Below are positions 20,779 through 25,724 of a stretch of DNA of 64,000 bases, one piece after another. Location of the stretch: assembly GCA_004297825.1 (NCBI GenBank), contig SCSX01000015.1, forward strand, positions 1 through 64,000, written 5' to 3'. Below the pieces are notes generated by a model that did no database searches, was not told the origin of the DNA, and saw only the letters and a list, made by a program, of their open reading frames with translations. The stretch comes from Spirochaetota bacterium. GTDB lineage: Bacteria; Spirochaetota; UBA4802; UBA5368. Made by a program: the position numbers and the translations under genes. Positions within the stretch are counted from its first letter, which is position 1. Every line of letters starts with the position of its first letter.

Positions 20779-22521
20779 ATGGACAATAAACAAAAAATCC
20801 CCATTTGGGGAAAGGAGAAGGGAAGAAAAATAGCGATCCGGGGTACAGATGTCGTTCACCCTTCCCAGTGGGTTTCGGGAGAACATCCGGGCACGTGCCA
20901 GGTGCCGTATATTCTGAACCCCAGATCGCTTAGTCATCATGAAAATCTTGCCATTCGAAGAATCTGGAGGTCAAGCGATTATTCCGGAAAAAACTTCAGT
21001 CTCTTCAACATCACCGACGTGCCCAGTAAATACAAGCTCGCGCAAGTGCTTGCGTGCGGGTTAAAGGCCACCAATGCCACCTATTCGCAGCACTGGGAGG
21101 GACTGTATTTCGACTGGACCTTTAACGAGCGAATGAAGGCTATCGTTAATGAATTCAAACTCTTTCGCCAGGGTGAACGATTTGTCGACAACGCATTCGC
21201 GACCATCGTTCTGTTGAATACCGGTTACAGTGGCCCGTTCATGCAGATGCTCAATCTGCGCAGGAAACCAATGCCCCCCAGCATGCTGACCCTCGAGCAG
21301 ATCGACATGGGCACCTTTGAGCATAATATCAGGGCGGCCATCGGAGGGGTTCTTGGAGGTGCGATCGGAGCGAACGTCATCCGCCATTCTCTTGCCCGTG
21401 AGTGTATCGAAGGGCTCAATAAAGATGCGTACCTGGAATTGAGGCGTAATCTGATACTCGAGGCGCGCGAAGGGAATCCGGGGATGAATGAACGCGGCCG
21501 CGTAGCGGTTATCATCCAGATCGGGTTCAAGGGTCCCGAGGATCGCTTCACCTTTAGCGAGCACTTGATGAAACTCGCCGCGGCTAAGATCATCGAGCGC
21601 AAGAGCGAGCGGCGCAATGTGGATTTCGATCGTGATCTGGACGTGACAGTCTTATTCAATTTCAAAAGGACCATCAATAATTTATTCGTGAGGGATGGTC
21701 TGGAAAAAATCGTTAAAATGATCGAGGTGGAGGGGAATACCGAGCAAGGGCGTACCGTGCTCAACAGGATCAGAGACCGTATTGAAGAGGGATTGAGCAA
21801 AGCGCACGACGACATACTTGAAAGCTATGAGGACAATCTCCGAGATGGCCTTATCGGCCCCGGTCGCGATGGATATAATCAAATGGCCGGGCTCGTCGTG
21901 GGATTGGGCAAGAAGGTGCTCAAGCCCCGTGAAGACGCTCATAAAATGTTCTTCTTTTATATCGATCTCGATATGCTCGCGAAAACAGCATTGCCCATAG
22001 ACATGATTGAACACTCTATCGGCGAAGCTATACAGGCGGGTCTTAACTCGATCCATCTGGACGGAACCACGCTCGTTCCTACCGGGGAAGACCTCCGCTT
22101 CGGAGCGTTCTGCCTCACCGGACCGCTCCATTCGGCAGAGTGTAATGACTCAGTCGAGGAGCTCGAGCGCGGATATGGAAAGGGATTTTGGGATATCCTG
22201 GCGCCTGACCTGCCCCCGGTGAACAAGATGGTCGCCATTATCGCCCTCGCAGCCAAGAGCGAGCAGGATGCGATGATAAGCGAGGAGCAGGCGATGAGCG
22301 AACGCAAGTCGGTCAATGATGTATTCTGGTATAAAACCTGGAATCATCCCGAAGGGAAAAAGCTGGATGTGCGTCAGTGGATATCGTATGCAGACATGTT
22401 GAATGTCGTCCCTATACCCGGGAACGACACTGCCTTGTCAGATGACCCGGTGCCTGATATTCTTCCTGCCGATCATCCGAATACCATGGTATACTCCTCC
22501 CTTAAAAGGAAGGATGCATGA
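20779..22521 (+). CDS. 580-residue orphan protein, probably TetR-controlled
   Basis: AGAGGAGG seven bases before the ATG is a very strong ribosome binding site, suggesting high expression when derepressed. The protein has no signal peptide. A glycine-rich hydrophobic segment (AAIGGVLGGAIGANV, residues ~186-200) could insert in or touch a membrane, and a long charged helical region spans ~280-370. The C-terminus is proline-rich. No catalytic motif or family is recognised. Position after a TetR gene, with a terminator behind, makes a two-gene unit with inducible control likely. Confidence 0.7.
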   Translation: MDNKQKIPIWGKEKGRKIAIRGTDVVHPSQWVSGEHPGTCQVPYILNPRSLSHHENLAIRRIWRSSDYSGKNFSLFNITDVPSKYKLAQVLACGLKATNATYSQHWEGLYFDWTFNERMKAIVNEFKLFRQGERFVDNAFATIVLLNTGYSGPFMQMLNLRRKPMPPSMLTLEQIDMGTFEHNIRAAIGGVLGGAIGANVIRHSLARECIEGLNKDAYLELRRNLILEAREGNPGMNERGRVAVIIQIGFKGPEDRFTFSEHLMKLAAAKIIERKSERRNVDFDRDLDVTVLFNFKRTINNLFVRDGLEKIVKMIEVEGNTEQGRTVLNRIRDRIEEGLSKAHDDILESYEDNLRDGLIGPGRDGYNQMAGLVVGLGKKVLKPREDAHKMFFFYIDLDMLAKTALPIDMIEHSIGEAIQAGLNSIHLDGTTLVPTGEDLRFGAFCLTGPLHSAECNDSVEELERGYGKGFWDILAPDLPPVNKMVAIIALAAKSEQDAMISEEQAMSERKSVNDVFWYKTWNHPEGKKLDVRQWISYADMLNVVPIPGNDTALSDDPVPDILPADHPNTMVYSSLKRKDA

Positions 22522-22772: not shown

Positions 22773-24047
22773 ATGGCCGAGAGGAAACGGGCAGTCTCGA
22801 TTCGCAGCGTGTCGGTGTTCATAGGTCTTTTGCCACTTATATTCGCGGCCTGCCTTTTTTATGTCCTCCTGATATTCGTGTCCCCTACCGGCGCCTTGAA
22901 CAGCAGTGCGCTCGCGTATTTTGGGCTTGCAATGGCGGGGATTCTCGCATTTGGCGTCTCTGCCGCTATTCTCCGGCACAGGAGGTTTGGCATCCCTGTA
23001 CGGAAGCTTGTGGAAAATACCCGTAATATTACCATTTACACCCGGCTGCCGGGAACAAGCCGGAGCGGCTTCAGGGAAATCACGGACAACCTGAACGGCA
23101 TGTTCGCACGGGTTTCGTATCTCATGGACGAGATAACCGGAATTACCGGCAATCTCGTGGAATCACTCAACTCTATGTCCGATACATCGTTGGTGTTTTC
23201 TCAAAATGCACAAAACCAGGCCGCGACCACTGAACAGATCACCGCAACCATTGAAGAGATATCCGCCGGGATGGAAACGGTCACCAATAACGTTTCCATG
23301 CAGTTCTCCAAGCTTTCCGAGCTTACCCGGAACATTCTAACCCTGTCGAGCGTCATCACCGAGATCAGCCGGCAGGTCCAGGACGCCCAGGCGCTTTCCG
23401 GGGAAATATCACACCACGTAGCGGTGGGGAGTGAAACGCTCGAGAGATTGAGCGTCAGCATGGAAACGATACGCGCGAACTCCCGGGAAATGACCAATAT
23501 CGTGCAGATTATCAACGACATCTCGGACAAGATCAACCTGTTGTCCCTGAATGCCTCGATCGAAGCGGCGCGTGCCGGGGATTATGGGCGGGGATTCGCG
23601 GTCGTCGCAGACGAGATTTCGAAACTCGCCGACCAGACCACGATGAGCATCAAGGATATCGACGCCCTCATCAAGAAAAACGACCAGGAGATCGTGGTGG
23701 AGCTGGGCAATGTCAAGGAAACCGTTTCGATGATTTCCGGCATCTCCCAGGGGGTCGGGCGGATCGATTCGCTGGTGGACCAGATTTCCTCCAACGTGAA
23801 CATGCAGCTCGAGATCAAGGAAATCATCAACCGGGAGGCGGACACGGTAAAGTCCGGTTCGGATGAGATCAAGGCGTCTACCGAGGAGCAGCACACGGCG
23901 ATCCAGGAAATCGTGAAATCGGTATCACAGATCAACGAATCCACCCAGGCGATCGCGTCCGGCTCCGAGCAGATTGCGAACAAGTCCGTCGAGCTGGCGA
24001 GCACCTCGCAGGTGCTGAAAGAGCGGATCGAATATGTAAAACTGTAG
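22773..24047 (+). CDS. Chemoreceptor (MCP) lacking a periplasmic sensor domain
   Basis: The 424-residue protein has two closely spaced membrane helices ([20 protein letters not shown] and the segment around [13 protein letters not shown]), separated by only about ten residues, so there is no extracellular ligand domain. After a short linker comes an MCP signalling region, with the kinase-contact tip [19 protein letters not shown] near residues 252-270 and adaptation-type glutamine/glutamate runs. It would form arrays with CheA/CheW. AGGGGG precedes the ATG. The next gene, 13 bases on, probably supplies the sensory input. Confidence 0.9.
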
Positions 24048-24060
24048 AAGGAGGTCCCAA

Positions 24061-24645
24061 ATGGCTCAGTTTAAGGCATTCACGGCCAATGCGGAGGTCA
24101 ACGGCGAAACCGTGCTTTCAATCGTTGACGGGATGGGTAACTTCAAGGATCGGGCCATGAAGTTCCTGGATGAACAGGGAATAAAATCGCCGGAACCGGG
24201 GAAATGGTATTCACAGCAGGCATGGCTCAATGCGTTCGAGGCCATAGCCAAGGCGACGGGAGATTATACGCTCTTCAACATCGGGAAGAAAATACCCGAG
24301 AACGCGAAATTTCCGCCCCAGATTGACGATATCGAAAAGGCGCTCTCCGCGATCGACGTTGCGTACCACATGAACCACAGGATCAACAACGAGGTGCTCT
24401 TCAACCCGAATACCGGAGCCATGAAGGAAGGCATAGGGCATTACGCATTCGAGAAAACGGGGGAGCGCAAGATGAAGCTGGTATGCAATAACCCGTATCA
24501 TTGCGATTTCGATAGAGGCATAATCGATGCGATGTCGCAGCGTTTCAAACCGGCAGGCGTTCCGCTGGTGATGGTACGCCATGACGATACTCAGCCCTGC
24601 CGCAAGAAGGGTGCGGATTCCTGTACCTACCTTGTAAGCTGGTAG
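24061..24645 (+). CDS. Cysteine-rich V4R-like soluble protein, likely chemoreceptor partner
   Basis: The 194-residue protein has a helical N-terminal half and a C-terminal half with CNNPYHCDFDRGII and CRKKGADSCTYLVSW (Cys142, 148, 180, 188). This resembles V4R/H-NOX-superfamily small-molecule domains, which end in a G..C.F-type strand; the H-NOX YxSxR heme motif is absent. AAGGAGG sits before the ATG, and the gene starts 13 bases after the chemoreceptor, so they are co-expressed. Ligand or metal sensing relayed to the receptor is an inference. Confidence 0.65.
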   Translation: MAQFKAFTANAEVNGETVLSIVDGMGNFKDRAMKFLDEQGIKSPEPGKWYSQQAWLNAFEAIAKATGDYTLFNIGKKIPENAKFPPQIDDIEKALSAIDVAYHMNHRINNEVLFNPNTGAMKEGIGHYAFEKTGERKMKLVCNNPYHCDFDRGIIDAMSQRFKPAGVPLVMVRHDDTQPCRKKGADSCTYLVSW

Positions 24646-24680: not shown

Positions 24681-25724
24681 TTATACAAAACGCTCTCCCG
24701 GCCTTGCGATGAGTATGTCTCCTGATTCCCCGAGCTTGTGAACGATACGGATTATCCTGTTCTGTGATTCTTCCACGTCCTCGAGACGTATGGGGCCCAT
24801 ATACTTGATATCTTCGCGGAGAAGCGCGGCTGCCCTTTTGCTCATATTCGCAAATATCTTCTCCTGTACTGCCGGGCTTGCGCCCTTAAAGGCTTTTGCA
24901 AGGTCCTGCGTATCCACCTCGCGAAGGACTTTTTGTATCACCCTGTCGCCGCACGCGGCAAGATCCTCGAAGACAAACCATTTCTGCATGATCTGTTCAT
25001 ACAATTCGGGGGCATATTCCTCGAATCCCCGCATCACCTGCGAAGACAGTTCTGCCGGTCGTGATCCCAGGAGCATGATAAGGGTGCGCACTCCCTGCCC
25101 GGACGATTTCACTGCCTCCGCGAGCGCCCCTATCTCCTGTTCGGAAACGGGTTCGCTGGACACGATGCGCCTGTTGGCCGACAGGATTTTTTCGAGCTCC
25201 TGCCTGCATTCCTCGTCTTCCATGGGAATGGAGATATTCGCTCCGGGAGACATTTCGTTAACCGGAACGCGGTTGGGCGTAAAACCGGTCTTGTCGTCCG
25301 CTTTTTCCGGATCAGCCTGACCGTGTACCGCCGGCGGAGTGGAATAATCGGGTTCCAACCGTTCCCCGAGATGCGCCATCATTTCCTCGCGGACATAGTT
25401 TGGTGAAAGTCCCTGCTGAATGCCCAGTATCCCGCTCGTCGCGACCATGCGCATGAGCAGCTCCCATCCGTCAAAATGCCCGGCACGCATCCTGGTCACA
25501 CATATATCATGCACACGCTGCGGATCGCATCCGTCCACCACGAGCCTGAGGCCGTTTTTTATGAAAGTCGATTCGATGCCGGGCAGCTCGTCTTCAAGGG
25601 CGAGGAGGCCTTCCATGCGCGCCTTTTCGGCGAATTGAACGAGCATGTCTATTATGGGGATAATTTTCCGCTTTTCGGTTTTTGAGCATGTGGTGTTTTT
25701 CCAGAGATGCGCATCGTATAGCAT
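24681..25724 (-). CDS. Chimeric MotA(cytoplasmic)-FliG(C-terminal) protein
   Basis: Residues ~22-75 match the MotA cytoplasmic loop (FAEKARMEGLLALEDELPG, then FIKNGLRLVVDG.DP), and ~88-120 match the MotA C-terminal tail (ATSGILGIQQGLSPNYVREE), but the transmembrane helices that should lie between are missing. After a ~60-residue linker, residues ~185-345 are the FliG middle/C-terminal domain: FVFEDLAACGDRVIQKVLRE, KIFANMSKRAAALLREDI and MGPIRLEDVEESQ. FliG-N is absent. AGGGGG lies near the ATG. It could modulate stator-rotor contact. Confidence 0.82.
   Translation of the reverse strand: MLYDAHLWKNTTCSKTEKRKIIPIIDMLVQFAEKARMEGLLALEDELPGIESTFIKNGLRLVVDGCDPQRVHDICVTRMRAGHFDGWELLMRMVATSGILGIQQGLSPNYVREEMMAHLGERLEPDYSTPPAVHGQADPEKADDKTGFTPNRVPVNEMSPGANISIPMEDEECRQELEKILSANRRIVSSEPVSEQEIGALAEAVKSSGQGVRTLIMLLGSRPAELSSQVMRGFEEYAPELYEQIMQKWFVFEDLAACGDRVIQKVLREVDTQDLAKAFKGASPAVQEKIFANMSKRAAALLREDIKYMGPIRLEDVEESQNRIIRIVHKLGESGDILIARPGERFV

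Follow-up and report, generated by a model that had tools for sequence, protein, structure and literature searches.

The gene at 24681-25724, on the minus strand of a stretch of 64,000 nucleotides from a Spirochaetota bacterium (the whole stretch is called the window here), encodes a soluble protein in which the cytoplasmic head of MotA is joined to the torque domain of FliG, the transmembrane (TM) helices being excised. This architecture is confirmed, that is, profile searches, the predicted fold and the recurrence of the layout in other genomes and in a phage agree with the soluble protein carrying both faces that had been proposed from the letters alone (the sequence-only reading). The open reading frame (ORF) is complete and uninterrupted, starts with ATG, has its stop codon within these coordinates and specifies 347 amino acids in the order MotA head, linker and FliG-C; all the parts of the protein described below lie on the same, minus strand. 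With about even confidence, we regard the product as an accessory cytoplasmic motor regulator, a clutch or brake which would occupy the rotor-stator interface.

The N-terminal domain (residues 1-121, 25362..25724) is an all-helical MotA cytoplasmic head without TM helices, as judged by AlphaFold2 prediction and a Foldseek search against the PDB. Residues 22-78 (25491..25661) are equivalent to the MotA cytoplasmic loop between TM2 and TM3 and include R36 and E44, as assigned by profiles and the PDB match, and residues 88-121 (25362..25463) are equivalent to the C-terminal tail following TM4. A hidden Markov model (HMM) built from eight spirochaete MotAs of the same bacterial family aligned MotA 75-131 with residues 22-78 at 55.7 bits and MotA 214-247 with residues 88-121 at 6.0 bits, which is weak by sequence alone; the assignment of the tail piece is secured by its motif, present in the paralogues as 'IQAGDNP', and by a fold match spanning both pieces. 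Among 1000 shuffled sequences the top score with this HMM was 4.7 bits, against 63.4 bits for residues 1-135. In addition, residues 15-80 are recognised by several MotA/MotP models of NCBIfam, two of them at 1.7e-14 (the best value) and 1.5e-13, and PDB MotA chains match the protein at 9.8e-12 in a sequence search. Pfam gave no match to the MotA half, but this is not counter-evidence, since NCBIfam, the PDB and the fold comparison all give a clear answer. The pLDDT of residues 1-121 is mostly 87-97, and the domain predicted alone gave a pLDDT of 86 and a pTM of 0.82. Ranks 1-23 of its fold matches in the PDB are all MotA or PomA, and an unrelated structure does not appear before rank 24 (E 0.78). 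The best match is chain C of 8UCS, with an rmsd of 2.8 and a query-normalised TM-score of 0.69; the viral structure library BFVD gave no MotA-head match.

Between the two pieces, MotA 132-213 (TM3 and TM4) is absent from the HMM alignment. The hydropathy maximum over a 19-residue window is 1.0, compared with 2.15-2.82 in real MotAs, so the protein has no TM helix. These results bear out the sequence-only reading, which had seen in the N-terminus the two cytoplasmic parts of MotA with the intervening membrane helices gone, and they go beyond it in that TM1 and TM2 are missing as well. With the MotA equivalog model the protein scores 53.4 bits, below the curated cut-off of 340. It possesses the torque loop with the presumed equivalents of R90 and E98 (R36 and E44) and lacks the four channel-forming TM helices, and because these helices are absent it cannot be a stator.

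Two further features had escaped the sequence-only reading: a disordered linker of about 47 residues (122-168, 25221..25361, pLDDT <50) and, at approximately residues 193-249 (24978..25148), helices resembling FliG ARM-C. The latter fall within the match to TIGR00207 (fliG), which extends over residues 193-344 and model positions 183-333 of 338 at 1.4e-39, its score of 136.4 bits being below the cut-off of 226.7. Among the family members described below, the ARM-C-like stretch is restricted to the window protein and a split orthologue. The FliG C-terminal domain itself, already recognised in the sequence-only reading, occupies residues 234-339 (24708..25025; Pfam FliG_C 9.2e-37), and its torque helix with R297, E304 and D305 occupies residues 296-308 (24801..24839), as located by the PDB match, the model and the alignment. 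The FliG structure 3ajc shows 44% identity to the protein across the fold alignment, and 1qc7_B matches the predicted FliG-C with a target-normalised TM-score of 0.94. FliG-C is well predicted by AlphaFold2, and the model of the whole chain gave two separate sets of matches, one to structures of FliG and one to structures of MotA, so that the two ends of the chain are placed with the two different motor proteins. Thus the C-terminal domain with its torque helix is present by profile, by torque residues and by fold. The N-terminal (FliF-binding) and middle (FliM-binding) domains of FliG are absent, and because of this the protein would not be built into the C-ring as a rotor subunit.

The residue numbering relative to E. 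coli was derived from motif spacing and combines established knowledge with inference. On this basis we take R36 to be MotA R90, E44 to be MotA E98 and R297 to be FliG R281, and we likewise assume that E304, D305, K280 and R313 correspond to FliG D288, D289, K264 and R297, respectively. R36, E44, R297 and E304 are unchanged in 10 of 10 aligned members, the phage member included, and the position of D305 is occupied by D in nine and by E in one. In contrast to these, the equivalents of FliG K264 and R297 (K280 and R313) vary within the family. In E. coli and Salmonella, the contacts are between R90 and E98 on the MotA side and D289 and R281 on the FliG side (PMC7564593, PMC12505986).

The presence of complementary salt-bridge residues within one chain also speaks for another reading, namely, that the MotA and FliG domains are each other's partners, either within one chain or head-to-tail between chains, and have been repurposed as a switch or polymer which is complete in itself and plays no part in running motors. 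This reading would suit the absence of linkage to flagellar genes and the location of the phage copy in a packaging operon. However, it is precisely the contact residues of the motor that have been retained, and the source genome has ordinary FliG and MotA genes, so we consider it unlikely.

The window gene is not alone. A second gene of the same layout is found in the source genome (contig C78, 62343-63104, 255 aa), which in addition has ordinary genes for FliG (on C50 and C6) and for MotA (on C33). A search for the same architecture in other Spirochaetota, which the sequence-only reading had proposed, detected family members by profile in about 10 of the 393 genomes sampled, including 6 of the 46 in the same order; nearly all the other spirochaete genomes gave FliG-type or MotA-type matches only. 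Full-length members occur in genomes G158, G166, G189, G216, G100, G178 and G220. Most members have 245-276 aa, their FliG part consisting of the last subdomain only. In genome G077 the orthologue of the window gene is split across two contigs, and its piece pairs with the window gene in the FliG-C tree with support of 98/90. Genome G080 contains a diverged member with degenerate tandem copies. A related-locus search on genome collections returned ordinary FliGs only. Outside the spirochaetes, the family profile matched 0 of 249 Pseudomonadota genomes, 0 of 247 in the phylum of a Desulfocapsa genome and 0 of 150 in the phylum of a Thermoleophilia genome, all of which are weak negatives because these groups have no positive control.

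The split member in G077 and the degenerate copies in G080 are what might be expected of a non-functional gene fusion or an assembly chimera, the latter being the artefact that the sequence-only reading had itself considered. The assembly artefact is rejected on the grounds of the paralogue in the source genome, the intact layout in independent assemblies and the low dN/dS, which is 0.04-0.20 in both halves for close member pairs with unsaturated synonymous sites. Both halves are under purifying selection, and a non-functional fusion or chimera is therefore extremely improbable. With regard to the two irregular loci, the C-terminal half in G077 (contig C68, L106, 3-713) follows a transporter-like hydrophobic sequence located where the contig begins, and this arrangement is probably a join error at the contig end. 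In G080 the locus L107 (5830-8234) carries three tandem diverged ORFs resembling MotA heads, and the first of them has no torque motif, which suggests decay or a new use.

The family also extends to phages. In IMG/VR, four contigs with a MotA head were detected (L094, L116, L117 and L118); scanning viral contigs with the source genome's own MotA gave no match. In L094 a terminase large subunit (4e-61) and a portal protein (1.1e-107) are followed by a 246-aa MotA-head/FliG-C protein (FliG_C 1.8e-21, MotA 9.6e-11), the frame of which overlaps the next late ORF; judging from its genes, this contig is a phage packaging cassette. In the other three the MotA head stands alone (115-160 aa), and the accompanying phage genes are genes for a DnaB helicase and tail proteins (L116), major head and tape-measure genes (L117) and a member of the phage-type adenylosuccinate synthetase family (L118). 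L117 has a second, broken MotA-head copy (L133, phage contig G401, 2630-3000), the frame of which is split into two short ORFs. The protein encoded at 15333-16286 of L118 (IMGVR_UViG_3300033146_007470) belongs to PHROG 1211 (2-aminooxy adenylosuccinate synthetase, PurZ type), and its annotation hints at a modified (2-aminoadenine) phage genome. Two other sets of matches were set aside. The FliG match in MT835480.1 (L112, 'Bacteriophage sp.') was rejected because it lies in a bacterial flagellar operon (FliF, FliG, FliH and FliI), the record being mislabelled or contaminated, and FliG and MotA matches in Listeria phages were left out because they lack annotation and resemble host DNA.

These copies raise the possibility that the protein is of phage origin and slows or stops the swimming of the infected host, the chromosomal copies being captured phage genes turned into regulators. 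The four viral contigs, one of them with FliG-C, the patchy chromosomal distribution and the grouping of three of the phage MotA heads in one clade are in its favor. In contrast, most chromosomal members have a FliG-C which clusters with that of spirochaete FliG and not with the phage, and no phage gene was recognised by Pfam in the ORFs beside the window gene. The trees of the N- and C-terminal domains contain about 100 sites with long branches, the p-AU being 0.42 for one clade, and are weak on the date of the fusion and the direction of transfer. We hold this origin to be quite unlikely, although it is compatible with the clutch or brake reading. Somewhat more broadly, the proteins of phages and spirochaete chromosomes may tentatively be put together as a class of mobile regulators which mimic both torque faces in one chain and would jam or uncouple the motor, a proposal that we think possible but less than probable.

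The phage copies are also relevant to an adaptor that bridges stators and rotor and helps stators to load or stay, for example at high load, raising the torque instead of blocking it. Spirochaete motors have high stator occupancy, and a chain with one face per partner, joined by the disordered linker, would suit such a function. However, stabilisation of stators fails to explain the phage copies, above all the stand-alone MotA heads, and the gene is absent from most of the sampled spirochaete genomes, among them those of close relatives that possess FliG and MotA; the adaptor is accordingly rather unlikely.

Across the members there is no constant neighbour and no linkage to flagellar operons. 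In the window, 22773-24645 encodes a methyl-accepting chemotaxis protein followed by a 194-aa ORF, which has no Pfam or NCBIfam match above the cut-off; a sensory partner may be encoded in this interval. Elsewhere, three spirochaete genomes have small proteins that resemble one another (L099, 12791-13285; L101, 14744-15304; L111, 3021-3416), and two of the three end in a 'GYNLY/GYNLF' motif. Also in the window, 20779-22521 contains a 580-aa ORF without a Pfam or NCBIfam match above the cut-off. A strict sigma-28 pattern has four matches in the genome against two for the reversed control and none upstream of the 24681-25724 gene, and since the pattern is hardly commoner than its control, a link with the flagellar regulon is unproven. 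In the window protein itself Pfam detected neither a sensory domain nor a PilZ domain.

Among the brake, the clutch and the assembly scaffold that the sequence-only reading had offered as roles, we infer that the clutch or brake is favored. In this mechanism the FliG-C half would enter the pincer that neighbouring MotA heads form in a stator unit, while the MotA head would dock on the torque helix of a rotor FliG, with the outcome that the stators would slip (a competitive clutch) or become tethered to the rotor (a brake). The intramolecular MotA-FliG pair could hold the protein closed until it is needed. In an engineered MotA(1-262)-linker-FliG(239-333) fusion, FliG-C is bound between two neighbouring MotA heads (PMC11302681), and a similar position in the pincer is plausible for the FliG-C half of the window protein. 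Because FliG-C binding in that work needs two adjacent heads, a single soluble head, which provides half a pincer, could engage rotor FliG but perhaps weakly, unless the protein is oligomeric. The identity of the domains, the kept contact residues, the patchy spread, the phage copies, the low dN/dS and the precedents of YcgR and EpsE favor the clutch or brake, and the unconserved K264 and R297 positions, the lack of flagellar-operon linkage and of a constant neighbour, the unproven sigma-28 link and the failure to find a trigger domain speak against it.

A related family is already on record in Leptospira. NCBIfam lists NF047717 (LIC10244, 'PerRA/PerRB upregulated protein') without a known function. 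Compared through its model, this family is similar in length (252 aa), and model positions 9-241 of 252 align with the member of G158, the C-terminus of which is FliG_C at 1.6e-10. The same model covers residues 11-124 of the window protein at 36.8 bits, below the curated cut-off of 475. By these profile comparisons the window protein is homologous to the LIC10244 family and not a member of it by the family's own cut-off; it differs in its longer linker and its extra ARM-C-like stretch. In PMC8638967, LIC10244 appears as a hypothetical cytoplasmic protein which, in host-implanted chambers, was 6.6-fold higher in the wild type than in a double mutant of perRA and perRB. An upregulated fliG paralogue of L. 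interrogans, MY479_RS01260, is described as 'FliG C-terminal domain-containing' (PMC13066512). Consequently, the claim that the layout is undescribed holds in part: it is not unique, NF047717 and this paralogue being listed, but no paper was found which names the MotA half or the architecture. In the open-licence literature searched, no description of such a fusion or of a phage-encoded stator mimic was found.

Spirochaetes have periplasmic flagella, which drive cell shape as well as movement. If the binding of the window protein is what its parts imply, no earlier natural protein is known to carry both faces of the flagellar torque interface. Rotor-stator coupling in spirochaetes would then become directly accessible to genetics, and the Leptospira family raised during host adaptation would gain a candidate function. 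It would also mean that copies of motor parts are encoded by phages, probably for altering the swimming of their hosts.

Among the known systems, YcgR is a PilZ c-di-GMP protein. It binds MotA and FliG, slowing motors (PMC10140304), and the window protein may resemble it as an accessory cytoplasmic protein contacting both; unlike YcgR, it has no PilZ match in Pfam, and its putative binding faces are copies of the motor's own. EpsE of Bacillus subtilis is a clutch which acts on the rotor and resembles glycosyltransferases (PMC3000366), and the proposed likeness is the uncoupling of the rotor, whereas the window protein has no glycosyltransferase match in Pfam. By the profile searches run, the window protein appears unrelated to YcgR or EpsE, and by the respective cut-offs it is placed outside the MotA, FliG and LIC10244 families. 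The engineered Clostridium sporogenes MotA(1-262)-FliG(239-333) fusion (8UCS, PMC11302681) has the same order of parts, MotA, a flexible linker and FliG-C, but that construct is laboratory-made and contains four TM helices and MotB, whereas the window protein is natural and soluble.
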